A DNA stretch of 64,000 bases from Clostridiales bacterium (lineage in GTDB: Bacteria > Bacillota > Clostridia > Christensenellales > Borkfalkiaceae), in assembly GCA_015069465.1 (NCBI GenBank), contig SVIO01000001.1, positions 62,001 to 126,000 of the forward strand, written 5' to 3'. The position numbers and the translations under genes are program-made. Below are positions 22,660 to 48,587 of the stretch, one piece after another; positions within the stretch are counted from its first letter, which is position 1; each line of letters opens with the position of its first letter. The notes under the pieces were generated by a model. That model had not been told where the DNA came from, searched no databases, and saw only the letters and a list, made by a program, of their open reading frames with translations.

Positions 22660-22916
22660 AGAATATAAACCGATGAAGTAAAGTAGTAGATTTTGCAGAA
22701 GTTTTTAGAGAGATTGTGGTCGGTGTAAACAATTAGCAGAGCAATTTTGAATGGATTACTGAGGGTGGCAATGAACAAAAAAGTAGTTGCTGACGCAAAA
22801 AGCCAAGCGTTAAAGTGGCAGGGCATTATTGTGCTCGAAAGAGACAAAGTTTTAGACTTTGTGAAAGTGGGTGGCAACACGGATATATTCGTCCCATAGA
22901 ATATTCCGTGTTTTTT
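22660..22916 (+). promoter_or_regulatory. T-box riboswitch, tRNA-Trp specific
   Basis: Stem I runs from AGTA (22682) to TACT (22757-22760). It contains the AGAGAG motif and an inner TTGC/GCAA pairing that leaves a specifier loop reading TTTTGAATGGAT. The codon UGG (22752-22754, Trp) is followed by the usual A. The T-box itself is GTGGGTGGCAACACGG (about 22867-22882). Its UGGC bulge (22872-22875) calls for a tRNA with discriminator G, as in bacterial tRNA-Trp. A terminator hairpin (ACACGGA.../...TCCGTGT followed by TTTTTT, ending at 22916) competes with the antiterminator (GTGGG with TCCCA). Uncharged tRNA-Trp should therefore switch on the downstream gene. A second GGGTGGCAA lies at 22763-22771. 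Confidence 0.92.
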
Positions 22917-22939: not shown

Positions 22940-24313
22940 ATGCTAGAAAAAGTTATTCCAACAAAAATTTATCTTCAAGAAAGTGAACTACCTAAAAGTT
23001 GGTATAATATAAACGCTGTTATGAAAGATAAGCATGCTCCAGCGCTTAATCCTATAACAAAAAAACCTGTTACATTTGAAGAACTAAGCCAAATTTTGTG
23101 TGATGAACTTGCTAAGCAAGAATTAAACATGACCGATGAATATATCCCTATTCCTGAAGAAGTTCAAGAATTTTATAAAATGGTTCGTCCATCACCATTA
23201 ACTAGGGCATATTTTTTAGAAAAAGTGCTTGATACTCCTGCTGAAATTTATTATAAATTTGAAGGAAACAATACATCTGGTTCGCATAAATTAAATTCTG
23301 CAATTGCTCAGGCTTATTATGCTAAAAAACAAGGTTTAACAAGTCTTACAACCGAAACAGGTGCAGGACAATGGGGAACAGCCCTTTCTATGGCATGTGC
23401 ATTTTATGGACTTGATTTAACTGTTTATATGGTAAAGAGCAGTGCTGAACAAAAACCATTTAGAAAAGCAATTATCGAAACATATGGTGGAAAGGTTATC
23501 CCAAGCCCATCAAACACAACAAAAGTTGGTAGGGAAATTTTGGAGGCGTTCCCAAACACGGGTGGCTCGCTTGGTTGTGCCGTTTCTGAAGCAACAGAAA
23601 AAGCATTAAACACACCAAACTGCAGATATGTTTTAGGTAGCGTTCAAGACCATGTAATTTTGCATCAATCTATTATCGGTTTAGAAACTAAGGTAGCACT
23701 TGATAAATACGGCATTGAACCTGATATGTTTATTAGTTGTGTTGGTGGTGGTTCTAACTTTGGTGGTTTTATCGCCCCATTTGTTAAAGATAAAATTGAA
23801 GGTAAGGCAAAATATAAAATTATCGGTGTTGAGCCAGCATCTTGCCCGTCAATGACAAGGGGTAAATATGCTTATGACTTTGGTGATACAGGTAAAATTA
23901 CACCACTTCTTAAAATGTGCACACTTGGTAGTGGGTTTATGCCATCAACGAACCATGCTGGTGGACTTAGATATCACGGCATGAACCCAATCGTGTCTAA
24001 ACTTTATCACGATGGATATATTGATGCTGTTGCTGTTGAACAAACTAAGGTATTTGAAGCGGCAGTAATGTTTGCAAAATCTGAAGGCATACTTCCAGCA
24101 CCAGAATCATCACATACCATTAGAGAAGTTGTTGACCAAGCATTAAAGTGCAAAGAAACTGGCGAAAAGAAAACAATTGTATTCTGTTTGACAGGAACGG
24201 GCTTTTTTGACCTTGCAGCATATTCAGCATATAACAACAATACTATGTCTGATTATATTCCAACAGATGCTGAACTTCAAAAAGGTTTTGATACTTTGCC
24301 AAAAATTGACTAA
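22940..24313 (+). CDS. trpB: TrpB-like PLP enzyme (tryptophan synthase beta, TrpB2 type)
   Basis: 457 residues, about 60 longer than classical TrpB1. It has the N-terminal extension and the RPSPLTRAYFLEK block of the TrpB2 family. The PLP lysine is Lys117 in SGSHKLNSA, the substrate loop ETGAGQWG is present, and the phosphate-binding Gly loop reads CVGGGSNFGG. TrpB2 proteins make tryptophan from indole and serine. No trpA or other trp gene is nearby. The Trp T-box directly upstream is strong contextual evidence that the product is tryptophan. AAGGAG lies ahead of the ATG. Confidence 0.92.
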   Translation: MLEKVIPTKIYLQESELPKSWYNINAVMKDKHAPALNPITKKPVTFEELSQILCDELAKQELNMTDEYIPIPEEVQEFYKMVRPSPLTRAYFLEKVLDTPAEIYYKFEGNNTSGSHKLNSAIAQAYYAKKQGLTSLTTETGAGQWGTALSMACAFYGLDLTVYMVKSSAEQKPFRKAIIETYGGKVIPSPSNTTKVGREILEAFPNTGGSLGCAVSEATEKALNTPNCRYVLGSVQDHVILHQSIIGLETKVALDKYGIEPDMFISCVGGGSNFGGFIAPFVKDKIEGKAKYKIIGVEPASCPSMTRGKYAYDFGDTGKITPLLKMCTLGSGFMPSTNHAGGLRYHGMNPIVSKLYHDGYIDAVAVEQTKVFEAAVMFAKSEGILPAPESSHTIREVVDQALKCKETGEKKTIVFCLTGTGFFDLAAYSAYNNNTMSDYIPTDAELQKGFDTLPKID

Positions 24314-27156: not shown

Positions 27157-29583
27157 TTATACAATAATATTTACCAAGCGTTTAGGAACAACGATAAGTT
27201 TTTTAATTGTCTTATCTTGTAATTCTTGTGCTAATTTTTCATCAGCATATATAATTTCTTTAATTGTATCTTGGTCTGCATCGTTTGGAATCATTATTTT
27301 AGCACGCATTTTGCTGTTGATTTGAACTGCAACTTCAACTTGGTCTAAAACGAGTGCACTTTCATCACAAACAGGGTATTTTGCATTGAAAATAGACGTT
27401 TTACTGCCAAGCATTTCCCAAATTTCTTCAGCAAAGTGTGGTGCACAAGGTGCAAGTAATAGGATAAGTGACTTAAAGCAATCTTTAAATACATTTACAT
27501 TTATTTGTTCTAATGTGTCGTATTTAGAAAGAGCATTTAAAAGTTCCATTAAACGAGCAACTGATGTGTTAAATGAGAATTGTTCCATATCTCTATCAAC
27601 GTTTTTAATTGCGTAGTTTGTTGCATATAAAAGGTCTTTTTCTTCTTTACCAATTGCGCTATCTTTGTTTGGTTGAAGGTTGATGAGTTTGTTAGCAAGT
27701 CTTTCAATCCTATCTAAGAACTTAGTAATTGCTTTAATACCATCATCGTTCCAAGGACCACCTTCAGTGTAAGAAAAACCGAACATTAAGTATAATCTTA
27801 AAATGTCAGAGCCAAATTCTTGAACGTATGGGTCAGGGGCGATAACATTGCCTTTAGACTTGCTCATTCTTTGTCCATCAGGTCCTAAAATTACGCCTTG
27901 GTGAACTAAAGATTTAAATGGTTCATCAAAGTTTAGATATCCCATATCTCTAAGTGCCTTAGTGATAAAACGAGCATAAAGTAGGTGCATACAAGCGTGT
28001 TCAGCACCACCAACATATTTATCAACAGGAAGCATTTTGTTGATGATTTCAGGGTTAAATGGCTCTTTTGAGTTTTGTGCATCTGGGTATCTTAAGTAAT
28101 ACCAACTTGAGCAAACGAATGTGTCAAGCGTATCAGAATCACGTTTTGCAGGTGCGCCACAAATAGGGCAAACGGTATTTATAAAACCATCGTGTTTTGC
28201 AAGTGGAGATTCTCCATCTGGCTTAAATTCAACATCGTATGGTAATTTAACAGGCAGTTGGTCATAAGGAACAGGAACTGTGCCACATTTTTCACAATGG
28301 ATAATAGGAATAGGCGCACCCCAATAACGCTGACGAGAAACCAACCAGTCACGAAGTCTATAGTTAGTTTTATGTTCAGCCTTTCCTTGTTTAACAAGTT
28401 CATTTATTATTGCCTTTCTTGCTTCTTCGCTTGACAAACCATCAAAACCAGGGCTATTCATAACGATTCCATCTTCAGTAAATGGAAGGTCATCAGCACA
28501 ATTTGAGCCTTTAATAACACGGGTAATAGGAAGGTTGTATTTGTTTGCAAAAGCAAAATCTCTATCATCGTGAGAAGGAACGCCCATAACAGCCCCTGTA
28601 CCGTATGAATATAAAACATAATCTGCAACGTAAATAGGAACGCTTTTACCATTGATAGGGTTTATTGCGTTGTGTCCAATATAAACGCCTGTTTTTTCAC
28701 GAGAAGTTGATAATCTATCTATTTCGTTGCACTTTGAAGTTTCTAAAATATATTCTTCAACAACTTTCTTTTGTTTTTGAGAAGTGAGTTTTGCAACTAA
28801 TGGATGTTCTGGTGCTAGAACTACATAAGAAACGCCGAAAAGTGTGTCTGCACGGGTTGTGAAAACCTTAAATTTATCGCCACTTTCAGCAGTAAATTCA
28901 ATTTCGCCACCAGAAGATTTGCCAATCCAATTCTTTTGCATAAGTTTTGTTTTTTCTGGCCAGTCAAGATTGTTTAAGCCTTGTAAAAGTTCTTCTGCAT
29001 AGTTGGTAATCTTAAAGAACCATTGTGTTAAATTCTTTTTAACAACAACGGATTTACATCTTTCGCACTCGCCGTTAACAACTTGTTCGTTTGCAAGAAC
29101 GGTTTGACAACCAGGGCACCAGTTTACAGGTGCTTCTTTTCTATAAGCAAGTCCATTTTCGTAGAGTTTTAAAAATAGCCATTGTGTCCACTTGTAATAA
29201 TCTTCGTTACAAGTCTTAATTTCGGCGCTCCAATCGAACAAAGCACCCATTTCGCTAAGTGTTTGTTCCATGTTTTCTATATTTTGCATTGTAGAATCTT
29301 TTGGGTGAATACCTGTTTTAATTGCATAGTTTTCGGCAGGTAAACCAAAAGCGTCAAAACCCATTGGTTGAAAAACTTCATATCCTTTCATTTTTTTATA
29401 GCGAACAAAACTATCAGTAGGGCCATAGTTATACCAATGTCCTAAGTGTAGTTTTGATGCTGATGGATATGAAAACATTTCTAAGCAATAATATTTTTTA
29501 TCAATATTCTTTGGGTTAAAGTTGGCTATTTTATCTTTTTCCCAAATATCTTGCCATTTCTTTTCAATCTTTTTAATGTCCAT
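27157..29583 (-). CDS. leuS: Leucine--tRNA ligase
   Basis: Class Ia synthetase charging tRNA-Leu, 808 residues. The HIGH motif is [15 protein letters not shown], the KMSKS loop is [10 protein letters not shown], the CP1 editing domain lies between, and two Cys-pair motifs ([14 protein letters not shown] and CERC) are present. I start it at the ATG at 29583 because GGAGG lies 11 nt upstream. The longer ORF start at 29622 falls within a few bases of the predicted transcription start, so it cannot be used. No T-box fits in the short leader. Confidence 0.97.
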
Positions 29584-29626
29584 AAAGTCAAATTGCCTCC
29601 ATAGTATAGTTATATAAAACAAAGTA

Positions 29627-29655: not shown

Positions 29656-29965
29656 GAATAATTTATATAATTAAACATTATAAACAAAAAATTTTGTTAA
29701 AATTTATAGGGAAGATTTAATTTTTTTGATAATTTACAAAATAATAATGCAATATTAGCGAAACAAAACCATAAAAATAATTTAATTATATATTTTTATA
29801 AAAGTCTGTAAAATAATAGCGATTTTAATGGTCATTATGTGTGTCATAATCATATCGACTATTTTTTATTTTTCAATATAATTAACACTTGGTATATGCT
29901 AAAATTTATAGGTTTTTTTATATTAAAAAAATTAGCAATTTACCTATGAAACTACATTTATATAG
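29656..29965. other. AT-rich intergenic region between leuS and the aromatic-acid operon
   Basis: About 310 bp with no ORF, tRNA or riboswitch that I can recognise. A small inverted repeat, ATTATG...CATAAT, lies at about 29835-29851 and could be an operator. No second element supports that. Confidence 0.4.
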
Positions 29966-29994
29966 TTGACTTTGTTTATTTAAAAGTATATAAT
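29966..29994 (+). promoter_or_regulatory. SigA-type promoter of the attenuated aromatic-acid operon
   Basis: TTGACT (29966-29971), a 17-bp spacer, TATAAT (29989-29994). The start point should be near 30001. The transcript would open with a leader-peptide ORF at 30024. Confidence 0.88.
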
Positions 29995-30023
29995 ATATAA
30001 GAAATTTACTTTAGGAAAGAATT

Positions 30024-30083
30024 ATGAAAAACATAGTGCATTATTATCGCCAATACAATTATTTTTATTATTATTTTGGATAA
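30024..30083 (+). CDS. Tyrosine-rich leader peptide (19 aa)
   Basis: Translation gives MKNIVHYYRQYNYFYYYFG then TAA. Seven of 19 residues are Tyr (six TAT and one TAC codon) and two are Phe, with a run YFYYYF just before the stop. AGGAAAG (30013-30019) lies at a proper distance ahead of the ATG. The ORF begins about 23 nt after the predicted transcription start. The stop codon is followed within 9 nt by the 5' strand of an antiterminator, and then by an intrinsic terminator. This is the design of ribosome-mediated attenuation leaders such as pheL or trpL. The peptide itself probably has no other role: slow decoding of its Tyr codons is the signal. I know of no named family for it. Confidence 0.85.
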   Translation: MKNIVHYYRQYNYFYYYFG

Positions 30084-30091
30084 TAAACTTT

Positions 30092-30155
30092 TTTTGTGCG
30101 GTATAATGTAATTAACTGTATAATTTATGCCGTCACAAAATTGTGACGGCTTTTT
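30092..30155 (+). promoter_or_regulatory. Transcription attenuator with alternative antiterminator and terminator
   Basis: The segment TTTTGTG-CGGTATAA (30092-30106) can pair with 30125-30140: 14 pairs including one G-U, with one bulged U at 30133. This pairing consumes the 5' arm of the terminator (30129-30138). The two structures are thus mutually exclusive. A ribosome that finishes the leader at 30083 would cover the first bases of the antiterminator and favour termination. A ribosome stalled at the Tyr cluster (30060-30074) leaves 30092 free and favours read-through. Predicted outcome: the operon is induced when charged tRNA-Tyr is scarce. Confidence 0.82.
30129..30155 (+). terminator. 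Intrinsic terminator of the Tyr attenuator
   Basis: GCCGTCAC (30129-30136) and GTGACGGC (30143-30150) form a GC-rich stem around AAAATT, followed by TTTTT and, after one C, TTT. It ends 15 nt before the symporter ATG at 30170, whose ribosome binding site (GGAGG at 30160-30164) lies just past the T-tract. It is a leader terminator rather than the end of an upstream gene. Confidence 0.9.
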
Positions 30156-30169
30156 CTTTGGAGGCTTAA

Positions 30170-31696
30170 ATGACTGTTGCTTATATTATTTTAATTTTAT
30201 ATTTTTTGTCTATGGTGGCAATTACCCTTTATACAAAAAATCGCTCTAAATCAGTAAATGACTTTTTAATGGCAGGTAAAAAAGGGCTTAATGGCTGGAT
30301 GAGTGCTTTTGCTTATGGCACAACATATTTTTCGGCAGTAATCTTTATCGGTTATGCAGGTAAATTTGGTCAGTCTTATCAAATGGCTGCAACTTGGATA
30401 GGTATTGGGAATGCTTTTTTAGGTGCATTATTTGCTTGGAAAGTTCTTGCAAAAAGAACAAAACTAATGACCCATAGATTAAGCACTAAAACTATGCCTG
30501 AATTTTTTGAAAAAAGATACGGTAGTAAAAATATTAAACTTTTTTCGGCTATCATAATATTTGTGTTCTTAATTCCATATTCAGTTTCGGTATATAACGG
30601 ACTTAGCAACTTATTTGAAATGGTTTTTGGGATTGAAGGTTGGATAATTATGCTTGCATTAGCAGGAATAACGGCACTTTATCTATTTTTTGGTGGATAT
30701 TTTGCAACGGCACTTTCGGATTTTATTCAAGGCATAATTATGCTTGTCGGCATTGTTTTAATGGTGTTGTTTTTTCTTAAAAGTGAATATGTTGAGTGGG
30801 ATATTTCTTCACTTAATTGGTTTACTTTTAATAGTAAAAATCAAGTGATTTTTGGTGATACAATTTCGCTAATTTCTCTAATATTATTAACATCTTTTGG
30901 CGTTTGGGCATTGCCACAAACAATACATAAATATCATACAGTTAGAGATGATAAGGCCATAAATCAAGGTATGATTGTAAGCACTGTGTTTGCTTTAATC
31001 ATTGGGTTTGGCGCATATTTTGTTGGTGGACTCAGTCAAGTTGATGGTTTTTCTAATCACTTAAATGGGGTGGCATCAGACGATGTTGTTCCAACTATGC
31101 TAAAACTTTTAGGTCAACCTTGGCTTCTTGGAATAATTGCCGTTTTAATACTTTCTGCAAGTATGTCAACGCTTTCATCTGTTTCGCTTTCAAGTGCATC
31201 GGTTGTTGCAATTGACCTTTATAAAGGTTTTATTGATAAAAAGGCACAAGATAGAAAAGTTAATATAATAATGCGTGTTTTATGTCTTGTTTTTATTGTA
31301 ATTTCGGTTGTTTTAGCCGTGCTTAACGATATATATAAAATTTCGGCAATTGCTTATCTTATGGGGTTAAGTTGGGGTACGCTTGCAGGTTGTTTTATCG
31401 GCCCATATGTTTTAGGACTTGTTTGGAAAAAGGTTACAAAAAGTGCTGTTTGGGTATCGATGATTACTTCGTTAGTGTTAACAATTGTTTTAATTTTTGT
31501 GTTTGGATATATTAAGTGTGGCTATGGTGGAACATTTGGTTTAATACTTCAAAATGGTATTAACTGCTCGCCACTAATCGGCGTTATTTGTATGGCAAGT
31601 TCAATGATTTTAACATTTGTTATAAGTTTGTTTACAAAACAACTAGATAATAAAATTGTTGAAAAGGCTTTTAATGATGTAGTAGAAAATAATTAA
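30170..31696 (+). CDS. Sodium:solute symporter (SSS family), candidate arylacetate or aromatic amino acid importer
   Basis: Integral membrane protein of 508 residues with about 12-13 helices. Family marks include the N-terminal YTKNRSKSVNDFLMAGK loop and FFGGYFATALSDFIQG in the middle. GGAGG lies 5 nt before the ATG. It is the first structural gene after the Tyr attenuator and is followed 29 bp later by paaK. SSS members include phenylacetate permeases (PaaL/PhaJ type), acetate permeases (ActP) and proline carriers (PutP). The operon context suggests an aryl acid or an aromatic amino acid as substrate. That is inference. Confidence 0.88.
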   Translation: MTVAYIILILYFLSMVAITLYTKNRSKSVNDFLMAGKKGLNGWMSAFAYGTTYFSAVIFIGYAGKFGQSYQMAATWIGIGNAFLGALFAWKVLAKRTKLMTHRLSTKTMPEFFEKRYGSKNIKLFSAIIIFVFLIPYSVSVYNGLSNLFEMVFGIEGWIIMLALAGITALYLFFGGYFATALSDFIQGIIMLVGIVLMVLFFLKSEYVEWDISSLNWFTFNSKNQVIFGDTISLISLILLTSFGVWALPQTIHKYHTVRDDKAINQGMIVSTVFALIIGFGAYFVGGLSQVDGFSNHLNGVASDDVVPTMLKLLGQPWLLGIIAVLILSASMSTLSSVSLSSASVVAIDLYKGFIDKKAQDRKVNIIMRVLCLVFIVISVVLAVLNDIYKISAIAYLMGLSWGTLAGCFIGPYVLGLVWKKVTKSAVWVSMITSLVLTIVLIFVFGYIKCGYGGTFGLILQNGINCSPLIGVICMASSMILTFVISLFTKQLDNKIVEKAFNDVVENN

Positions 31697-31725: not shown

Positions 31726-33024
31726 ATGATTTGGTCAAAGGAAGAAACTCTTTCTAGGAGTGAAATTGAAAAAATTCAACTTGAAAGACTGCAAGAAACT
31801 GTAACAAGGGTTTATGAAACTGTACCTTATTATAGACAAAAAATGCAAGATAAGGGCATTGTTCCACAAGACATAAAGTCGCTAAGTGACCTTAAAAAAT
31901 TGCCGTTTGTTACAAAACAGGATATGAGAGATACTTATCCTTTCGGGCTATTTGCTGTTCCAAAGAATAAACTTGTAAGAATTCACGCTTCAAGTGGTAC
32001 AACGGGCAAACCAACGGTTGTAGGTTACACACAAAACGATTTGAAAGTTTGGACTGAATGCGTTTCTCGTATTGCTTGCATGGGTGGTGCAACGGCAGAT
32101 GATGTTGCTCAAATATGTTTTGGTTATGGAATGTTTACCGGCGCTTTAGGACTTCATTATGGCTTAGAAAATATTGGCGCAACAATAATTCCATCATCAA
32201 CTGGTAATTCAGAAAAACAAATAATGTATATGAAAGATTTTGGAACAACACTTCTTGTTGCAACTCCTTCATATGCACTTAGACTTGCTGAAGTTGCAAG
32301 AGAAATAGGCGTTGACCCAACAAAAGACTTGAATGTTAAAATAGGACTTGTTGGAAGCGAACTTTTAACCGATGCTATGCGTGAAGAAATGCATAAAGCG
32401 TGGGGCAAAGATATGCTTGTTACATCAAACTATGGCATGAGCGAACTTATGGGGCCTGGTGTTTCTGGCGAATGTGAATATCTTTGTGGTATGCACATAA
32501 ATGAAGACTATTTTATTCCAGAAATTATTGACCCTGTAACTGAAGAAGTTTTACCAGCAGGTGAAAAGGGTGAACTTGTTATTACTTGTATCAAAAAGGA
32601 AGGAATTCCACTAATTAGATATAGAACAAAAGACATAACAAGACTTTTCTATGAACCTTGCAAATGTGGAAGAACTTTCTGCAGAATGGAAAACTTGTCT
32701 GGTAGAAGCGACGATATGCTTAAAATTCGTGGTGTAAATGTCTTCCCAAGTCAAATAGAAGAAGTAATACTCAGTTTTGATGAGTTAGGTCCACATTATG
32801 AAATAGTTGTTTCAAGAGAAGGTTATACCGATAAACTTGAAATTAGAGTTGAACTTACTCACTCAACCGATTCGTTTGCAGTGCTTGAAAAATTATCAAA
32901 TGCTGTTAGGAATAAACTAAAGGTTATTTTAGGATTAGATGCAAAAGTTAAATTAGAATCACCAAACACACTTCAAAGGTTTGAAGGTAAAGCAAAAAGG
33001 ATAAAGGATTTAAGAGGAAAATAA
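31726..33024 (+). CDS. paaK: Phenylacetate--CoA ligase family protein (copy 1)
   Basis: AMP-forming ligase of 432 residues that activates an aryl acid such as phenylacetate to its CoA thioester. The P-loop HASSGTTGKPTVVGYT begins at residue 88. GMSELMGPGVSGECEY and the hinge motif GRSDDMLKIRGVNVFPSQIEE are intact, as is the PaaK-type C-terminal domain. AAGGAG is well placed. One base separates its stop codon from the iorA start. It shares length and motif order with the second copy at 35358-36656, so the two are paralogues. Confidence 0.93.
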   Translation: MIWSKEETLSRSEIEKIQLERLQETVTRVYETVPYYRQKMQDKGIVPQDIKSLSDLKKLPFVTKQDMRDTYPFGLFAVPKNKLVRIHASSGTTGKPTVVGYTQNDLKVWTECVSRIACMGGATADDVAQICFGYGMFTGALGLHYGLENIGATIIPSSTGNSEKQIMYMKDFGTTLLVATPSYALRLAEVAREIGVDPTKDLNVKIGLVGSELLTDAMREEMHKAWGKDMLVTSNYGMSELMGPGVSGECEYLCGMHINEDYFIPEIIDPVTEEVLPAGEKGELVITCIKKEGIPLIRYRTKDITRLFYEPCKCGRTFCRMENLSGRSDDMLKIRGVNVFPSQIEEVILSFDELGPHYEIVVSREGYTDKLEIRVELTHSTDSFAVLEKLSNAVRNKLKVILGLDAKVKLESPNTLQRFEGKAKRIKDLRGK

Positions 33025-33025
33025 A

Positions 33026-34765
33026 ATGAAAGAAAAAATTATTATGCTTGGAAATGAAGCCATTGCTCGTGGCGTGTATGAAGCAGGTGTTAAGGTTTCA
33101 AGTGCATATCCAGGAACACCAAGCACAGAGATTAGTGAATACTTATCAAAGTATAGTGAAGTTTATACTGAATGGGCACCAAATGAAAAGGTTGCAACCG
33201 AAGTTGCTTTCGGTGCATCATTTGCAGGTGTAAGAAGCCTTGCTTGTATGAAACACGTTGGTTTAAACGTTGCAAGTGACCCATTATATACATTTTCTTA
33301 TACAGGCGTAAATGGTGGCGCAGTTATCGTTGTTGCAGACGACCCAGGTCTTGCAAGTTCACAAAACGAACAAGACACTCGCATGATTGCTCGTGCATCA
33401 CATATTCCTGTAATCGAACCATCAGATAGTATGGAAGCCAAAGAATTTGTTAAGTTTGCATACGAATTAAGCGAAAAATACGATACTCCTGTAATTCTTA
33501 GAACAACGACAAAACTTTCTCATTCACAAAGTATTGTGGAACTCTGCGATAGGGTTGAAGTTAGTGACAAAGACTATAATCGTGACGTAAGAAAATATGT
33601 TATGATGCCAGCATCTGCTATCGGCAGACACCTTGTTGTTGAAGCAAGGGATAACAAAATTGCAGAAGACGGCTGTAATTTTCCTATAAATAAAATGCAA
33701 ATTCTTGATAAGAAAATCGGCTTTATCACAAGTGGTATTGCTTATCAATATGTAAAGGAAGTTTGCCCAAAAGCAAGCGTATTAAAACTTGGTCTTGTAA
33801 ACCCACTTCCTAAAAAACTTATAGAAGAATTTATAGCCCAAGTTGACACAGTTTATGTTTTTGAAGAACTTGAACCTGTTATCGAAGAACAAGTTAGGTC
33901 TTGGGGTTATGATGTAAAAGGAAAAGAACTTTTCACTCGCCAAGGCGAATATAGTGCAAACATGCTCAAAAAAGCACTTTTTGGCACAAATGACGTTGTT
34001 TTTGAAAAGAAAGACTCTCCAAATCGTCCTCCTATTCTTTGCCCAGGTTGTCCACACAGAAGCGTGTTCTCAGTATTAAATAAACTTAAAATTCACGCTG
34101 CTGGCGACATTGGTTGTTATACTTTAGGTGCTGTTGCTCCACTTGGTGTAATTGATAGCACGCTTTGTATGGGTGCAAGTATTTCAACACTTCACGGCAT
34201 TGAAAAGGCAAGGGGTAAAGATTTTATTAAAAATTGGGTTGCAGTTATCGGCGATTCAACATTCCTACATACAGGTATCAACTCTTTAATCGGTTTAGTA
34301 TACAACAAGGCGACAGGAACTGTTCTTATTTTAGACAATAGAACAACAGGTATGACAGGTCACCAAGAACACGCAGCAACAGGCAAAACTCTTAAAGGTG
34401 AAGATACAAATGCTATCGATTTAGAAGTTCTTTGCAAGGCTGTTGGTGTTAAAAACGTTTTAACTATTGATGCTTTTGACATTAAATCATTAGAAAAGGC
34501 TATTAAAGAAAGTGTTAATGGTGATGAACTCACAGTTATCATTGCAAAAGCACCTTGCGCACTATTAAAAGGTCAAAAATTTCCATTTAAGTGCGTGTGT
34601 GATACTGAAAAGTGTAAAAAATGTGGCATGTGCTTAAAAATAGGATGTCCAGCAATAACAAAACAAGCAGATGGAACTGTTAAAATAGATGAATCTATGT
34701 GTAATGGTTGTGGTTTGTGCAAGAGTTATTGTAAATTTGATGCTATAAACAAGGTGGAAAAATAA
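33026..34765 (+). CDS. iorA: Indolepyruvate:ferredoxin oxidoreductase, alpha subunit
   Basis: 579 residues. Interconverts aryl pyruvates (indole-, phenyl-, hydroxyphenylpyruvate) and arylacetyl-CoA with ferredoxin. An N-terminal pyrimidine-binding domain (SAYPGTPSTEISEYL) is followed by a TPP-binding domain (GDIGCYTLG..., then GDSTFLHTGIN ahead of LDNRTTGMTGHQ). The C-terminus carries two 4Fe-4S binding runs (CKKCGMCLKIGCP and CNGCGLCKSYC) at about 528-570. The reaction is reversible and low-potential: some anaerobes use it to make aromatic amino acids from aryl acids. It is coupled to iorB by a 1-bp gap. Confidence 0.95.
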   Translation: MKEKIIMLGNEAIARGVYEAGVKVSSAYPGTPSTEISEYLSKYSEVYTEWAPNEKVATEVAFGASFAGVRSLACMKHVGLNVASDPLYTFSYTGVNGGAVIVVADDPGLASSQNEQDTRMIARASHIPVIEPSDSMEAKEFVKFAYELSEKYDTPVILRTTTKLSHSQSIVELCDRVEVSDKDYNRDVRKYVMMPASAIGRHLVVEARDNKIAEDGCNFPINKMQILDKKIGFITSGIAYQYVKEVCPKASVLKLGLVNPLPKKLIEEFIAQVDTVYVFEELEPVIEEQVRSWGYDVKGKELFTRQGEYSANMLKKALFGTNDVVFEKKDSPNRPPILCPGCPHRSVFSVLNKLKIHAAGDIGCYTLGAVAPLGVIDSTLCMGASISTLHGIEKARGKDFIKNWVAVIGDSTFLHTGINSLIGLVYNKATGTVLILDNRTTGMTGHQEHAATGKTLKGEDTNAIDLEVLCKAVGVKNVLTIDAFDIKSLEKAIKESVNGDELTVIIAKAPCALLKGQKFPFKCVCDTEKCKKCGMCLKIGCPAITKQADGTVKIDESMCNGCGLCKSYCKFDAINKVEK

Positions 34766-34766
34766 T

Positions 34767-35336
34767 ATGAAAGAATTAAACATAATGGTTGTAGGTGTAG
34801 GTGGACAAGGTACACTTTTGACAAGTAGAATTATAGGTAAAACAGCACTTAATGCTGGCTATGATGTAAAACTTTCTGAAGTTCACGGCATGGCTCAACG
34901 TGGTGGTAGCGTTGTAACTTTCGTTAGGTTTGGCGAAAGCGTTAACGAGCCTGTTGTCGAAGAAGGTTCAGCAGATATTTTAATCGCATTTGAAAGACTT
35001 GAAGCATATAGATATTCACATTATCTTAAAAAAGATGGCGTTATCATTGTTAATGATTGCAGAATTGACCCAATGACAGTTGTTATCGGTGCAAGTACAT
35101 ATCCAGAAAACATTATTGAAGAATTACAAAAAGACCATAAAGTTATTGCAATCGATGGTATGGAGATTGCTAAAAAACTTGGTAATTCTAAGGTGCTTAA
35201 TTCTGTTGTATTAGGATTATCTGCAAAATACATTGGTTTTACTAAAGAAGAATGGCTTGATATCGTTAGAAAAACAGTTCCACAAAAAACCATTGAAATA
35301 AATGAAAAGGCTTTTTTAAGTGGTTATGAATTCTAG
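34767..35336 (+). CDS. iorB: Indolepyruvate:ferredoxin oxidoreductase, beta subunit
   Basis: 189 residues, the gamma-domain partner of iorA. The N-terminal GVGGQGTLLTSRIIGKTALNAGYDVKLSEVHGMAQRGGSV region is shown in key parts as GVGGQGTLL and HGMAQRGGSV, both diagnostic for 2-oxoacid:ferredoxin oxidoreductase gamma domains. It forms the heteromer with IorA. It starts one base after the iorA stop, and the second paaK begins 21 bp later. Confidence 0.95.
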   Translation: MKELNIMVVGVGGQGTLLTSRIIGKTALNAGYDVKLSEVHGMAQRGGSVVTFVRFGESVNEPVVEEGSADILIAFERLEAYRYSHYLKKDGVIIVNDCRIDPMTVVIGASTYPENIIEELQKDHKVIAIDGMEIAKKLGNSKVLNSVVLGLSAKYIGFTKEEWLDIVRKTVPQKTIEINEKAFLSGYEF

Positions 35337-35357: not shown

Positions 35358-36656
35358 ATGTATTGGAATCAAAAAATAGAATGCATGAGCAGAGATGAAC
35401 TTACAAAGTTGCAAAGTGAAAGGTTGGTTAAACTCGTTGATTATGTGTATAACAATGTTGAGTTTTATCGTAAGAAAATGCAAGCAGTTGGTTTAGTGCC
35501 ACAAGATATAAAAAATATTGAAGATATAACAAAATTGCCTTTTACAACAAAAGATGATTTAAGAGACAATTATCCTTTTGGACTTTTTGCTGTTCCTGAT
35601 AGCGAAATTGTTAGAGTTCACGCATCTTCTGGAACAACAGGCAAAGCAACTGTTGTTGGTTATACAAAAAATGACATTGAAACTTGGTCTGAATGCGTGG
35701 CAAGATGTATGACAATGGCTGGGGTAACAAAAAACGATATAATTCAAATTGCTTATGGCTACGGTTTATTCACAGGTGGTCTTGGCGCACATTATGGCAG
35801 TGAAAAAGTTGGTGCAATGGTTGTTCCTATGAGCACAGGTAACTCTAAAAAATTAACCACAATGATGGTTGACTTTGGGGCAACAGCGATTGCTTGCACA
35901 CCATCATATTTACTTCATATCATTGAAGTTTTAGAACAAGAAGGTTTAATGGATAAAGTTAAACTTAAATATGCTATTTGTGGTGCCGAACCTTGGACTG
36001 AAAAAATGCATAAGGAAATTGAAGAAAGACTTCATGTTAGGGCACACGATATATATGGTTTAAGTGAAGTTATGGGACCTGGGGTTGCTTGTGACTGCGA
36101 ATATCACAAAGGACTTCACGTTTGCGAAGACCATTTCTATCCAGAAATTCTTTCTCCAAGTACATTTAAATGGCAAAAACCAGGTAAAACGGGTGAATTA
36201 GTGTTTACAACGCTTACAAAAGAAGGTTTGCCACTAATTAGATATAGAACAAAAGACCTTACAAGCATTGATTATTCTACTTGTGAATGTGGCAGAACAA
36301 GTGCTAGAATTAGCAGGTTTAAGGGTAGAGTTGACGATATGCTTATTATCCGTGGCGTAAACGTATTCCCAAGCCAAGTTGAAGCAGCACTCGTTGACGT
36401 TAAGGAAGTTTCTCCACACTATATGATTATTGTTGACCGTGTAAATAATCTTGATACATTAGAAATTCAAGTAGAAGTAAATCCACAGTATTATACTGAT
36501 GAAATTAGAGTTTTAGAAAACTTAACGAAAAAGATTTCGCATGTAATTAGTCAAGCATTGGGGCTTAATCCAAAGATTAAACTTGTTGAGCCACAAACAC
36601 TTGTTAGAAGTGAAGGCAAGGCTGTTCATGTTATTGATAAAAGAAATTTATATTGA
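35358..36656 (+). CDS. paaK: Phenylacetate--CoA ligase family protein (copy 2)
   Basis: 432 residues, the same length as copy 1, and paralogous throughout. HASSGTTGKATVVGYT is the P-loop, YGLSEVMGPGVACDCEYHKG and GRVDDMLIIRGVNVFPSQVEA follow. Differences cluster in the central acid-binding region (MVDFGATAIACTPSYLLHIIEV here, KDFGTTLLVATPSYALRLAEV in copy 1; compare TPSYLL with TPSYAL), so the two may prefer different aryl acids. GGAG precedes the ATG. It flanks iorAB on the other side from copy 1. Confidence 0.93.
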   Translation: MYWNQKIECMSRDELTKLQSERLVKLVDYVYNNVEFYRKKMQAVGLVPQDIKNIEDITKLPFTTKDDLRDNYPFGLFAVPDSEIVRVHASSGTTGKATVVGYTKNDIETWSECVARCMTMAGVTKNDIIQIAYGYGLFTGGLGAHYGSEKVGAMVVPMSTGNSKKLTTMMVDFGATAIACTPSYLLHIIEVLEQEGLMDKVKLKYAICGAEPWTEKMHKEIEERLHVRAHDIYGLSEVMGPGVACDCEYHKGLHVCEDHFYPEILSPSTFKWQKPGKTGELVFTTLTKEGLPLIRYRTKDLTSIDYSTCECGRTSARISRFKGRVDDMLIIRGVNVFPSQVEAALVDVKEVSPHYMIIVDRVNNLDTLEIQVEVNPQYYTDEIRVLENLTKKISHVISQALGLNPKIKLVEPQTLVRSEGKAVHVIDKRNLY

Positions 36657-36668
36657 TAGGAGGAAATT

Positions 36669-37097
36669 ATGGTAGCAAAGCAATTATCGGTTTTTATCGA
36701 AAATAGACAAGGAAGGCTAGGCGAAGTTTTAAATGTATTAAAACAAAACAATGTTAATATCTTATCACTAAGTTTAGCAGATACAACAGAATATGGTTTG
36801 TTAAGACTTATTGTTAACAATCCAGAATTAGGCAAGGAAAAACTTGCAGAAGATGGTTTTTCAACAATTTTAACCGATGTTTTAGTGTTGAAAATCTCTC
36901 ATCAAGCAGGCTCACTTCAACAACTTTTAAAAATTCTTTCTGATAATGATGTAAACATCGAATATATGTATGGACTTTCTATTGACGGTGAAGAAGCGTC
37001 AGTTGTTCTTAAAACATCAGATATTAAAATGGCTGAAGAAGTGCTAGGCGTTCAAGGCGTTAAAACATTATCTACAAAGGACATTGCATCACTATAA
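36669..37097 (+). CDS. Double ACT-domain protein
   Basis: 142 residues made of two ACT domains (about 1-66 and 70-142). The first opens with LSVFIENRQGRLGEVLNVLK and the second with LKISHQAGSLQQLLKILSDN. ACT domains bind amino acids. Stand-alone double-ACT proteins are often found beside paaK and ior genes and may sense the aromatic product. AGGAGG precedes the ATG. The role, allosteric partner of PaaK/IOR or regulator, is inference. Confidence 0.88.
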   Translation: MVAKQLSVFIENRQGRLGEVLNVLKQNNVNILSLSLADTTEYGLLRLIVNNPELGKEKLAEDGFSTILTDVLVLKISHQAGSLQQLLKILSDNDVNIEYMYGLSIDGEEASVVLKTSDIKMAEEVLGVQGVKTLSTKDIASL

Positions 37098-37098
37098 T

Positions 37099-37908
37099 AT
37101 GATTATCGATTTTCACACACATATTTTTCCAGATAAAATAGCAAGTTCAACTATTGGTGCACTTGCAAGTAATTCTGGCTCTACAGCGTACACAGACGGA
37201 ACGGTTAAGGGTATGGTTGATGCTTTAACTCGTGCAAATGCAGATATTGCTATTGCACTTCCTGTGCTTACAAAAGCCACTCAGTTTGACAGTGTGCTAA
37301 ATTTTGCATGCAGTGTTAACGAGCAATTTAAGAATGAAAAAAGAAAAATAATTTCTTTTGCAGGTATGCACCCAGACTGCGATGATATTGATGGAAAAAT
37401 GAAAAAAATCAAAAGTTTGGGCATTAAAGGTATAAAAATTCATCCAGATTATCAAAGTACTTACATCGATGACCCAAGATATATTGAAATACTTAAGTGC
37501 GCTAAAAAATATGATTTAATTGTCGTTACACACTCGGGCATTGACAATGGTTATATTGGTCAGCCTGTTAGATGTCCTGTCGATAAGGTCTTAAAAGTAA
37601 TTGAAGAAGTTAATTATGACAAGTTTGTGCTTGCTCATTTTGGCGCTCATAAACTATGGAATGAAGTTTTAGATAAACTTGCAGGAAAAAATGTGTATTT
37701 TGACACTGCTTTTACTTTTCACGAAATTGATAAGGATTTGTTTAAGGAAATTGTTTGTAAACATGGAAGCAAAAAGGTATTATTTGCAACAGACTGTCCT
37801 TGGCGAGATATAAAAGACGACTATGAAATTTTAAGTTCATACGGCTTAAAAAAAGAGTGTCTTGACAACATTTTATATAAAAATGCGTTAAAATTGTTAA
37901 ATTTATAG
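37099..37908 (+). CDS. Amidohydrolase (amidohydrolase_2/ACMSD-like metal-dependent hydrolase or decarboxylase)
   Basis: 269 residues, a TIM-barrel metalloenzyme. The HxH metal site is in the first strand (MIIDFHTHIFP). A GIKIHPDYQ strand, a His in VVTHSG, a His in VLAHFG and the late Asp in LFATDCPW follow in the order expected for the family. I start at the ATG at 37099, which gives the canonical N-terminus. A TTG at 37084 in the same frame overlaps the ACT gene and its ribosome spacing is too short. Relatives include ACMSD and resorcylate decarboxylases as well as hydrolases. Its step in this aromatic operon is unknown. Confidence 0.8.
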   Translation: MIIDFHTHIFPDKIASSTIGALASNSGSTAYTDGTVKGMVDALTRANADIAIALPVLTKATQFDSVLNFACSVNEQFKNEKRKIISFAGMHPDCDDIDGKMKKIKSLGIKGIKIHPDYQSTYIDDPRYIEILKCAKKYDLIVVTHSGIDNGYIGQPVRCPVDKVLKVIEEVNYDKFVLAHFGAHKLWNEVLDKLAGKNVYFDTAFTFHEIDKDLFKEIVCKHGSKKVLFATDCPWRDIKDDYEILSSYGLKKECLDNILYKNALKLLNL

Positions 37909-37916
37909 GTGACATT

Positions 37917-39110
37917 ATGAATTATAATCAAAATTCTTATGCGCTTGGAAGCAAGCGCTCAATCATTAGAGAAATATTTGAATATAGCAAAGTTAGAGCA
38001 AGCCAAATTGGTGCTGAAAACGTTTTTGACTTTAGTTTAGGTAATCCAAGTGTTGAGCCACCTAAAGAAGTAATTGACAGCATTAAAGAACTTCTTGCAA
38101 GCGAAAATCAAACTCTTTTACACGGATATACATCTGCTCAAGGCGATTTATCAGTTAGAACGGCTGTTGCAGACAATATAAATAGAAGATTTAATGCAAA
38201 TGTAACTCCAAACAATATATATATGACTTGTGGAGCAGCAGCATCGCTTTCTATTTGCTTAAAAGCCGTTGTTAATCAAGGTGACGAGTGCATTGTTTTT
38301 GCACCTTTCTTTACAGAATATAGAGTATTTGTTCAAAATGCCTTAGGTGAACTTGTAATTTCTAATCCAGATAAAGATTTACAAATAGACTTAAAAGATT
38401 TTGAAAGCAAGATTACACCAAAAACAAAGGCAGTAATTATCAACTCGCCAAATAATCCAAGTGGCGTTGTGTATACTGAAAGCGTTATTAAGTCGGTTTG
38501 CGATATTTTAAGAAAAAAACAAGCCGAACATGGCAATATTATATATTTAATTGCAGATGAACCATATCGTGAACTTGTTTATGGCGATGTTTTTGTACCA
38601 TATCTTATGAATTATTATGAAAATTGCATGGTTTGTTATTCTTATTCTAAATCGTTATCATTGCCAGGTGAAAGAATAGGTTATATTGCTGTAAATCCAC
38701 AAATGACCGATAGCCAAAACGTTTATCTTGCAATTTGTGGTGCAGGAAGAAGTCTTGGTTATGTTTGTGCGCCAAGTTTATTCCAACAAGTTGTTAAAAA
38801 ATGCATCGATGCAAAGGTTAATATAGATGCATATAAGAAAAATAGAGATTTGCTTTACACAAACTTAACTGAGTTTGGTTATGATTGTGTTAAACCAGAC
38901 GGAGCATTTTATCTTTTTGTAAAAAGTCCTGATGGAGATGCTTATTCATTTTATGAAAAGGCAAAAGCAAAAGAAATTTTGGTTGTTCCTTGCGATGATT
39001 TTGGTGTTAAGGGCTATGTAAGAATTGCTTATTGTGTTGATTATAATAGAATTAAAAATTCTCTCGCTGGTTTTGAAAAATTAGCAAAAGAATACGGCTT
39101 AATAAAATAA
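37917..39110 (+). CDS. PLP-dependent aminotransferase, class I (probable aromatic aminotransferase)
   Basis: 397 residues, fold type I. The cofactor lysine is Lys245 in SYSKSLSLPGERIGY. NSPNNPSGVVY and ADEPYRELVY supply the phosphate-binding and PLP-stacking residues. It is the last gene of the operon, 8 bp after the amidohydrolase and just before a strong terminator. In this setting it most likely interconverts aryl pyruvates with Tyr/Phe/Trp, completing the route between aryl acids and amino acids. Substrate preference cannot be fixed from sequence. Confidence 0.88.
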   Translation: MNYNQNSYALGSKRSIIREIFEYSKVRASQIGAENVFDFSLGNPSVEPPKEVIDSIKELLASENQTLLHGYTSAQGDLSVRTAVADNINRRFNANVTPNNIYMTCGAAASLSICLKAVVNQGDECIVFAPFFTEYRVFVQNALGELVISNPDKDLQIDLKDFESKITPKTKAVIINSPNNPSGVVYTESVIKSVCDILRKKQAEHGNIIYLIADEPYRELVYGDVFVPYLMNYYENCMVCYSYSKSLSLPGERIGYIAVNPQMTDSQNVYLAICGAGRSLGYVCAPSLFQQVVKKCIDAKVNIDAYKKNRDLLYTNLTEFGYDCVKPDGAFYLFVKSPDGDAYSFYEKAKAKEILVVPCDDFGVKGYVRIAYCVDYNRIKNSLAGFEKLAKEYGLIK

Positions 39111-40757: not shown

Positions 40758-42155
40758 ATGGAAAATAAGAATAATTTTAATGATGGACTTTGTGAAGTTC
40801 ATCAAAAGAAAGCAGGATTTAGTGGAAAACTTGGCTTTGTTCTTGCTGCAGCAGGCTCTGCAGTAGGACTTGGCAATTTATGGCGTTTTCCTTATCTAGT
40901 TGCAAAATATGGTGGAGGCGCATTTATTCTTTGCTATGTTCTTCTTGCTGTGTTTTTCGGCATTGCTCTTTTAATGCTTGAAATCGGTATAGGTAGGTAT
41001 ACTGGCAAAAGTGTTGTTGGTGCTTTTCCTGCGCTTAATAAAAAGTTTAAGTGGGTTGGATATTTGTCTATCATAGCGCCACTTTTAATAGTCCCTTATT
41101 ATTGCGTTATAGGTGGTTGGGTTGTTAAGTATGCTTGGTCATTTATAGTTGGAAGCGAAGGATTAGTTGGGGCAAATTCTACAGAAATGACTTCAAACTT
41201 TTTTAATAGTTTTGTTTCAAGTGATGTTGCGCCACTAATATTCTTTTTTATATTTGCATTTGTTACAATTTTGATTGTAAGTTTTGGCGTTAAAGATGGA
41301 ATTGAAAAGATGAGCAAAATTCTTATGCCTGCACTTGCTATTTTGGCTGTACTTTTAATGGTGTACGTGTTGTTTCAAGACAATTCAAGCAAGGGCTTAG
41401 AATATGTTTTTGTGCCAAAAATAGAAGATTTAACTTTTAATACCGTGCTTGCAGCATTAGGGCAATTATTTTATTCAATGTCAATAGGTATGAGCATTAT
41501 GATAACTTATGGCTCATATATGAAAAAAGATGTTAATATTAAGTCTTCTGCAACACAAATCGCCATATTTGATAGTGCTTTTGCGTTTGTTGCATCAACA
41601 ATAATTATTACTGCCGTTTTTGCTTTTGGCGCTGGCGAAAGTGCCTTAAAGCAAGATGGACCAGCACTTATGTTTGTGCAACTTACAAACGTGTTTAACG
41701 CTATTCCAGCAGGTAGAATTATTGCTATAGTGTTCTTTGTTTTAGTTTTATTTGCTGCAATAACAAGTTCGGTTTCTCTTGTAGAAGCAATTGTTGCAGT
41801 ATTAACCGAAAAGGGCAAAATGAAAAGACTTACTGCCTGCATGATTGTTTTTGGTGTAATTATAGTTTTAGGAAGTCTTTCGGCACTTGGTTTTGGTGCA
41901 CTTAGTCATGTTATTATTTTCGGTAGAGATATTTTAGGTATGTTTGACTTTGTAGCAAATAATATACTAATTCCTATTATTGCTATTATTACTTGTGTGT
42001 TTGCAGGTTGGTGTATAAACAAAAACATTATACCTAAAGAAATTGGTATTGACAAAAACAAAGCGTTAAATACATATTTTAATGTAATAGTAAGGTTTGT
42101 TGCACCTATTTGTATATTTGTTATTTTAGTTTCAGGCTTATTCTTAACATTATAA
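40758..42155 (+). CDS. Neurotransmitter:sodium symporter (NSS) family transporter
   Basis: 465 residues with 11 predicted helices, the bacterial MhsT/TnaT-like size class. The sodium/substrate site of helix 1 is intact (AAAGSAVGLGNLWRFPYLVAKYGGGAF), seen in parts as GSAVGLGNLWRFPY. Helix 6 carries the unwound FYSMSIGMS region. Bacterial NSS proteins import amino acids such as Trp, Tyr or Leu. The exact substrate is not fixed. It lies 11 bp after mrp with no clear ribosome site, and a terminator follows. Confidence 0.9.
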   Translation: MENKNNFNDGLCEVHQKKAGFSGKLGFVLAAAGSAVGLGNLWRFPYLVAKYGGGAFILCYVLLAVFFGIALLMLEIGIGRYTGKSVVGAFPALNKKFKWVGYLSIIAPLLIVPYYCVIGGWVVKYAWSFIVGSEGLVGANSTEMTSNFFNSFVSSDVAPLIFFFIFAFVTILIVSFGVKDGIEKMSKILMPALAILAVLLMVYVLFQDNSSKGLEYVFVPKIEDLTFNTVLAALGQLFYSMSIGMSIMITYGSYMKKDVNIKSSATQIAIFDSAFAFVASTIIITAVFAFGAGESALKQDGPALMFVQLTNVFNAIPAGRIIAIVFFVLVLFAAITSSVSLVEAIVAVLTEKGKMKRLTACMIVFGVIIVLGSLSALGFGALSHVIIFGRDILGMFDFVANNILIPIIAIITCVFAGWCINKNIIPKEIGIDKNKALNTYFNVIVRFVAPICIFVILVSGLFLTL

Positions 42156-43839: not shown

Positions 43840-44556
43840 ATGTTAAATCAAGAGCAAACACTTGATTACATAAGAAAAGCAAAAAATGGAGATGAAAGTG
43901 CAAAACAGCAATTGTTTAATAATAATTCTGCGCTATTAAAGAGTGTTATAAGGCGATTTTGCAATAAAGGCATAGAATATGATGACCTTTATCAAATTGC
44001 TTGCATTGGCTTTTTAAAGGCTATAAAAAACTTTGATGAAGAGTTTGGCGTTAAGTTTTCAACATATACCGTGCCAATGATAATAGGTGAAATTAAAAGG
44101 TATATGAGAGATAATGGTGCTATAAAAGTGTCAAGAACACTTAAAATTTTGGCAAATAAAATCAATCATTTTATTGATGATTATCAAACTAAAAACAATT
44201 TTTCGCCTACAATTGAGTGTATTGCACTAAATTTTAATATTTCTCAAGAAGACGTTGTAATTGCTTTAGATAGCGTAAAAATGCCACTTTCAATTTTTGA
44301 TAAGTTTGAAGACGATGACGAAGGTCAAGAACTTATTGATAAACTTATAACGACAGATAATGAAGAAAAAACAATTGACAGAATACATCTATCTAACATT
44401 ATTGAAAGTTTAAGCGATAGAGAGAAAAAACTTGTAGTTTTAAGATATTTTAGAGATAAAACACAATGTGAGATTGCCGAAAGTTTGGGTGTTTCGCAAG
44501 TTCAGGTTTCGAGGCTTGAAAGTAAGGTGATAGAAAAGTTGCGAAAAAAATATTAA
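43840..44556 (+). CDS. sigF: RNA polymerase sigma factor SigF (SigF/SigG group)
   Basis: 238 residues. Region 2 contains DDLYQIACIGFLKAIKNFD and FSTYTVPMIIGEIKRYMRD; region 4 has the helix-turn-helix CEIAESLGVSQVQVSRLE. Operon position directly after spoIIAB identifies it as SigF rather than SigG. It switches on early forespore genes. AGGGG precedes the ATG. Confidence 0.95.
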   Translation: MLNQEQTLDYIRKAKNGDESAKQQLFNNNSALLKSVIRRFCNKGIEYDDLYQIACIGFLKAIKNFDEEFGVKFSTYTVPMIIGEIKRYMRDNGAIKVSRTLKILANKINHFIDDYQTKNNFSPTIECIALNFNISQEDVVIALDSVKMPLSIFDKFEDDDEGQELIDKLITTDNEEKTIDRIHLSNIIESLSDREKKLVVLRYFRDKTQCEIAESLGVSQVQVSRLESKVIEKLRKKY

Positions 44557-48344: not shown

Positions 48345-48360
48345 ACTATAAAACTATGAT

Positions 48361-48587
48361 AAAGACTAAGCTTGCGAGAAAAACAAAGCAAGAGAAAGAA
48401 ATTCATTGGCTGTAAGATTTCTATTTGTTTGCAAGTGATTCACTTTGGAGTTGTGCACTGAAATAGTAGTAGGTGGCATCGGTTAATTTCCGTTATCGAA
48501 TTAAAAGGTTTATATTTTTTTATAAACGAATTTAGGTGGTACAGCGTTTCAAATCGCCCTATAAAATATAGGGCGATTTTATTTTTT
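48361..48587 (+). promoter_or_regulatory. T-box riboswitch, tRNA-Phe specific
   Basis: Stem I: AAAG (48361-48364) with CTTT, CTTGC with GCAAG, AAACAAA with TTTGTTT and AGAAAT with ATTTCT. This leaves a specifier loop TGATTCA with UUC (48439-48441, Phe) followed by A. The T-box AGGTGGTACAGCG is at 48534-48546. Its UGGU bulge fits discriminator A, which the tRNA-Phe at 42467-42542 has. Terminator: a 13-bp stem from AAATCGCCC (48551) to GGGCGATTT (48579), then TTATTTTTTT. Uncharged tRNA-Phe should turn on pheST. Confidence 0.94.

Follow-up and report, generated by a model that had tools for sequence, protein, structure and literature searches.

A putative tyrosine-responsive leader-peptide attenuator in front of an aryl-acid operon of uncultured Clostridia

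Leader-peptide attenuation is a textbook mechanism, and in Clostridia and other low-GC Gram-positive bacteria the usual amino-acid sensor is the T-box RNA. An initial annotation of a stretch of 64,000 nucleotides from a Clostridiales genome (contig SVIO01000001.1; the whole stretch is referred to as the window) had placed a Tyr-rich leader ORF and a complete attenuator in front of an operon for aryl acids, which raises the question of whether a peptide-based switch is present at this locus and which amino acid it would sense. The leader is best read as an attenuator of the classical ribosome-mediated kind, in which transcription responds to charged tRNA-Tyr and probably also to tRNA-Phe; the probability of this reading is put at roughly 0.88.

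Layout of the leader and the operon

The leader (positions 29966-30169 of the window) and the genes that follow it comprise these features:

29966..29994, plus strand: promoter of the sigma-70 type, TTGACT-17-TATAAT (11 of 12 matches to the consensus)
30013..30019, plus strand: ribosome-binding site of the leader ORF, AGGAAAG (from the sequence; a purine-rich site lies 5' of all leader ATGs)
30024..30083, plus strand: leader peptide ORF MKNIVHYYRQYNYFYYYFG, 19 codons with seven Tyr and two Phe (composition kept in 12 leaders)
30038..30058 (approximate), plus strand: region 1, the segment of the ORF that pairs with region 2 if ribosome-free (MFE fold)
30096..30106, plus strand: region 2, 5' arm of the antiterminator, GTGCGGTATAA, 12 nt 3' of the stop codon
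30125..30136, plus strand: region 3, 3' arm of the antiterminator, TTATGCCGTCAC, overlapping the 5' half of the terminator
30129..30150, plus strand: regions 3:4, intrinsic terminator hairpin of 9 bp with the loop AAAA
30151..30159, plus strand: T-run of the terminator, TTTTTCTTT (from the sequence)
30170..31696, plus strand: SSS-family sodium:solute symporter, first structural gene (Pfam SSF, 2.5e-49; below every NCBIfam equivalog cut-off)
31726..33024, plus strand: paaK-like phenylacetate-CoA ligase 1 (TIGR02155, 5.9e-151, under the curated cut-off)
33026..34765, plus strand: iorA, indolepyruvate ferredoxin oxidoreductase alpha (TIGR03336, 695 bits, over the cut-off)
34767..35336, plus strand: iorB, indolepyruvate oxidoreductase beta (NF005325, 262 bits, over the cut-off)
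35358..36656, plus strand: paaK-like phenylacetate-CoA ligase 2 (TIGR02155, 3e-166, under the curated cut-off)
36669..37097, plus strand: protein with a pair of ACT domains (Pfam ACT_8, 1e-25)
37084..37908, plus strand: amidohydrolase-family protein (Pfam PF04909, 5.4e-15)
37917..39110, plus strand: class I/II aminotransferase (NF005305, 556 bits, over the cut-off), probably the last gene of the operon

Promoter, ribosome-binding site, 19-codon ORF and terminator were all found where the initial annotation had them, and its antiterminator and terminator are indeed mutually exclusive, with the antiterminator arms narrowed from 30092-30106 with 30125-30140 to 30096-30106 with 30125-30136. The ORF runs from the ATG at 30024 to the stop codon at 30081-30083; the terminator hairpin ends 20 nt 5' of the symporter start, and is followed by the Shine-Dalgarno sequence GGAGG and the symporter ATG at 30170. 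The duplex of regions 2 and 3 has a free energy of -14.6 kcal/mol (p = 0.005 against shuffles), and the fold of the 170-nt leader has a z-score of -4.75, with none of 200 shuffles equally stable. The neighbour on the other side is leuS (27157-29622, minus strand); because it lies on the opposite strand, the hairpin does not mark the 3' end of a preceding gene, and the terminator is part of the operon transcript. Shortly 3' of the operon, at 40758-42155, a transporter of the sodium:neurotransmitter-symporter family is encoded, some members of which carry aromatic amino acids.

The whole 1.21-Mb assembly was scanned for similar leaders, with 72,000 bases of contig C11 read as N and outside all genome-wide statements. 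Among the 57 terminators in a 5'-leader position, only that of the window is preceded by a strongly amino-acid-biased ORF (72 kb of C11 masked). Likewise, 193 intergenic ORFs of 10-36 codons with a Shine-Dalgarno sequence and an ATG were collected from the genome and 80 related loci; the seven with at least five Tyr and at least 20% Tyr all sit at this leader position, and no other reaches these values. The runner-up in the genome is a weak candidate Phe leader, MGFIPYFGFAFRI, on the minus strand of contig C8 near position 44000, followed by a terminator and a gene for a 128-aa membrane protein; beyond it, no other amino-acid leader was found in the genome (72 kb of C11 masked).

Leaders in related genomes

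Searches of whole genomes and contigs with the symporter gave some 90 distinct loci, the compared genomes being uncultured MAGs. The gene order is kept in most of the symporter loci with more than 55% identity. The leader is present in 12 loci, i.e. in the window and in at least eleven relatives, and its peptides are highly divergent: MKKALFYCSYKYFYYYFR, MFYFYTAYAYYYFTTI, MYYFYPVYEFYYYHLT, MKLDARFNFYYAYYFYYYFE, MKNFKSFFRYYFYTRV, MRKFALFNRFYRYFFGGYLSISGRSGKYSRFLF, MFYYFDYYHGYKF, MFYFSYYFSFYFTIES, MFYFSYYFSFYFRIES, MFYCNAYYYGYFYFRNYFVS and MAIMKKYFYGYYFFGYYYFNGVQF in the relatives. They are 13-33 aa long and vary freely in their non-aromatic residues, while the richness in Tyr and Phe persists. 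A promoter with 11-12 of 12 consensus matches precedes all 12 leaders, compared with 23 of 2400 shuffled upstream sequences, and the distance from the -10 box to the leader ATG is 18-32 nt in ten of the 12. A GCGG-type arm follows 2-13 nt 3' of the stop codon (within the end of the ORF in L015), and the terminator hairpin ends approximately 18-34 nt 5' of the symporter start.

Terminator and Tyr-rich ORF occur together: ten loci have both, four the terminator only, one the ORF only, and 55 neither (Fisher p = 2.6e-8, with loci treated as independent and kinship ignored). Two of the five discordant loci (L067 and L022) are leaders that were overlooked by the automatic criteria. In one relative (L020/L127), promoter and terminator are kept with no Tyr ORF between them and a plain hairpin in its place, possibly a decayed or altered attenuator. 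The comparison with relatives that the initial annotation had proposed supports its reading: Tyr-rich ORF, antiterminator arm and terminator are kept as a unit, with L020/L127 as the exception. Two loci were excluded from the leader set: L064, which lies close to the end of its contig, and L078, whose contig is too short. In L064 (positions 1-325), a Tyr run, YYYEYRNF, lies just 5' of the terminator in another frame of a truncated response-regulator-like ORF, as either a natural fusion or an assembly chimera.

The leader is absent from most related operons, the close relatives L010, L070 and L071 among them. Since these leaderless relatives keep the operon, the switch has been lost (or gained) several times. 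In a tree of the symporters, the leader is found in several separated lineages, with at least five changes on supported branches and eight overall; this distribution is most simply explained by a leader that is old and was lost repeatedly, and repeated gain may have occurred instead. No T-box was found near the operons of leaderless relatives (11 loci, up to 13.5 kb), which rules out a T-box as their regulator within these stretches. No leader was found 5' of paaK in four genomes with the symporter elsewhere (G005, G016, G019 and G033), in the stretches examined, some of which were ended by contig ends. A degenerate DNA pattern (Tyr-Tyr-Tyr-Phe, GCGG, CCG) matched the 396 genomes of the order about as often as its reversed control, and in the 30 loci examined from these matches, the leader of the window was the only Tyr-rich short ORF with the same layout.

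Competing stems and the modelled switch

In each of the 12 leaders, region 2 is complementary to the 5' half of the terminator. Against dinucleotide shuffles, the pairing of regions 2 and 3 has a combined p of 5e-6 (individual leaders 0.005 to 0.35; related leaders taken as independent), and the weaker pairing of regions 1 and 2 a combined p of 0.003 (12 leaders, taken as independent). Region 2 was misaligned in several leaders in a MAFFT alignment, and covariation was therefore assessed by arm swapping, not with a covariance model. With one leader per group and all 40320 permutations, the leaders' own arms paired better than swapped arms, both for 2:3 (P = 0.018) and for 3:4 (P = 0.0002). At the level of sequence, the mutually exclusive parts, their conservation and the co-variation of their arms are established.

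The switch itself was modelled by folding with a blocked ribosome, in which the nucleotides under the ribosome were held unpaired and a footprint of 13 nt downstream was assumed. The leader of the window is predicted to switch, as the initial annotation had supposed: the probability of 1:2 pairing is 0.99 in the naked RNA, and that of 2:3 pairing is approximately 1.0 when the ribosome occupies Tyr 7, 8, 11, 13 or 15, but 0.00 when it has reached the stop codon. A window-like switch was obtained for L063, L074, L106, L093, L110 and L022, i.e. for seven of 11 leaders including the window (six of the ten others), and a partial one for L128; in L066, L067 and L068, the modelled antiterminator stays even with the ribosome at the stop codon (13-nt footprint). 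Once the leader is complete, the terminator is predicted to be the more stable fold in most cases, so the switch must be kinetic.

Stalling in vivo, and the amino acid sensed, we infer as follows. Transcription would start at the promoter (29966-29994), and a ribosome would translate the Tyr-rich leader. With ample Tyr, it would reach the stop codon at 30081, and region 2 would be covered or paired back to region 1; with region 2 occupied, the terminator (30129-30150) would form and end transcription before the symporter gene. When charged tRNA-Tyr is scarce, the ribosome would halt at Tyr codons 7-15, cover region 1 and leave region 2 free; the 2:3 stem would then form ahead of the synthesis of region 4, and transcription would continue into the operon. 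Its products would import aryl acids, which PaaK would activate to CoA thioesters; these would be reductively carboxylated by IOR, and the product transaminated to Tyr and Phe. The earlier proposal that low charged tRNA-Tyr leads to readthrough is supported by the comparison of the 12 leaders and by the fold of the window leader, and is to be qualified in that Phe is also enriched and that three of 11 leaders have no clean switch in the model.

Amino acid sensed, direction of the operon and related systems

When the residues of the 12 leader peptides are pooled, 31.5% are Tyr and 21% Phe (52% together); Lys accounts for 6%, Asn for 4%, Leu for 3% and Ile for 2.5%, and Trp does not occur. Either Tyr codon, TAT or TAC, is used interchangeably with the other. 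AT bias is not the cause of this enrichment, since Ile, Asn, Lys and Leu, with equally AT-rich codons, are rare.

Phe outnumbers Tyr in four leaders (L015, L074, L093 and L110), and with its share of one fifth of all residues it might be the amino acid that is chiefly sensed, or that is sensed equally with Tyr. A precedent is the AroR leader in front of aroF in Corynebacterium glutamicum (Neshat et al. 2014), which contains Phe-Tyr-Phe and is reported to respond to Phe, not to Tyr (PMC11802643). AroR is similarly a Gram-positive aromatic leader peptide with Phe and Tyr codons; it differs from the leader of the window in having only Phe-Tyr-Phe, in answering to Phe, in its actinobacterial host and in its shikimate target (PMC11802643). 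Such Phe sensing is unlikely for the leaders described here, given the seven Tyr against two Phe codons in the window, the lead of Tyr in the pooled count, the Tyr codons at the stall positions that free region 2 in the model, and the control of pheS in this genome by a Phe-type T-box already. For the window, the codons point to Tyr as the main signal, and Phe may contribute, most of all in the four leaders named; because Phe codons are also strongly enriched, the sensor is probably a Tyr-dominant aromatic one, not a purely Tyr-specific one.

PaaK turns aryl acids into CoA thioesters, IOR catalyses the step between aryl-acetyl-CoA and aryl-pyruvate, and the aminotransferase gives the amino acid; the route is reversible and can also be used in the catabolic direction. 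The genome contains aroC, pheA and tyrA, which rules out that the switch exists because the shikimate pathway was lost, and because of which the operon probably serves the salvage of aryl acids, the likely substrates of the symporter. The anabolic direction, in which we infer the operon to run, would agree with induction when Tyr is short, and the ACT-domain protein would fit feedback by aromatic amino acids.

The same reversibility, and the presence of a de novo route by which the operon is not the sole source of Tyr, could be taken to favour a tnaC-type arrest peptide, on which an abundant ligand, either free tyrosine or an aryl acid, would arrest the ribosome and so switch on a catabolic operon for the fermentation of amino acids. 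This is highly improbable, as arrest peptides need fixed residues at fixed distances, and here peptide length and non-aromatic residues vary freely with only the Tyr/Phe richness persisting, and as an intrinsic terminator with a competing antiterminator right after the ORF is the layout of starvation sensing. Least probable of all is a general translation-status sensor or a weakly functional relic, which would accord with the frequent absence of the leader and would ascribe its aromatic richness to AT bias or to the need of region 1 to pair with region 2, but which leaves unexplained a Tyr and Phe share of about half beside the rarity of equally AT-rich codons, and the fact that no other of the 193 short ORFs is as rich in Tyr.

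A Tyr-sensing attenuator of this kind resembles the enterobacterial pheA, pheST and trp leaders in its peptide rich in the sensed amino acid, its exclusive 2:3 and 3:4 stems and its terminator before the first gene; it differs in sensing Tyr instead of Phe or Trp, in its occurrence in Clostridia, and in its target, which is an operon for aryl acids where the enterobacterial leaders precede shikimate genes or synthetases. No Rfam leader family, Phe_leader, Trp_leader and Thr_leader included, reached its gathering threshold at the leader (best, Thr_leader with 18.8 against 55 bits). The uORFC-13-1 motif before aroF of Acholeplasma, a predicted Phe-type leader with at least one Phe codon and 24 representatives, likewise combines an ORF containing aromatic codons with a terminator behind it in a lineage other than Proteobacteria, and is set apart from the window by its published description, i.e. 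by another gene and another lineage (PMC8632094). In bacilli, His leader peptides precede hisZ/hisS* and represent ordinary leader-peptide attenuation replacing a T-box in Firmicutes; they differ from the window in amino acid (His), lineage (Bacilli) and target (synthetase-related genes) (PMC2965389). A survey of 2005 placed tyrosine genes under T-boxes and found Firmicute synthetases to be without classical attenuation (PMC1262725), and no published leader peptide that responds to Tyr was found in the full-text papers searched, mostly outside subscription journals.

The class of mechanism is known, and its Tyr specificity, its occurrence in Clostridia and its operon target appear to be new. 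It is somewhat more probable than not that these leaders are the first family of tyrosine-specific leader-peptide attenuators, old and repeatedly lost in uncultured gut Clostridia, and that aryl-acid reductive carboxylation (PaaK and IOR) is under Tyr control, which would imply that the operons run biosynthetically. If so, the at least 12 divergent Tyr leaders would add a new amino acid to the list and a new lineage to peptide attenuation, and a single small genome would combine peptide sensing with T-box sensing. If a shortage of Tyr turns the operon on, this would mean salvage from gut aryl acids such as 4-hydroxyphenylacetate and phenylacetate, not only the fermentation that makes them.

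The T-box (RF00230) also reads the charging of one tRNA and serves other amino acids in the same genome; it differs from the leader in binding the tRNA directly and in having no ORF. No RF00230 match is present at 29900-30250, though the two T-boxes that the initial annotation had reported elsewhere in the window are real. That at 22664-22899 (specifier TGG by position) precedes a TrpB-like PALP gene at 22940, and that at 48347-48564 (TTC by position) precedes pheS at 48598. Seven T-boxes were found in the genome, before the TrpB-like gene (one), a leuA-like gene (a tandem pair), pheS and thrS (one each) and two genes with an XRE domain at the start; by position, their specifiers appear to be TGG, CTC, TTC, ACC, ATC and GTA, for Trp, Leu, Phe, Thr, Ile and Val. 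None of the seven is a Tyr T-box (72 kb of C11 masked), and tyrS is preceded by a plain promoter and no T-box. The tandem T-boxes (C2:18323-18535, L213; C2:18649-18842, L218) precede one leuA/homocitrate-synthase-like gene, and the first of them reads CTC (Leu) by position. The T-boxes L214 (C5:873-1118) and L217 (C3:9301-9541, minus strand) read GTA (Val) and ATC (Ile) by position, and each is followed by a single gene for a protein of 755-776 aa with the XRE domain at its start; these genes may serve the salvage of branched-chain acids, as a counterpart to the aryl-acid operon under putative Tyr control.
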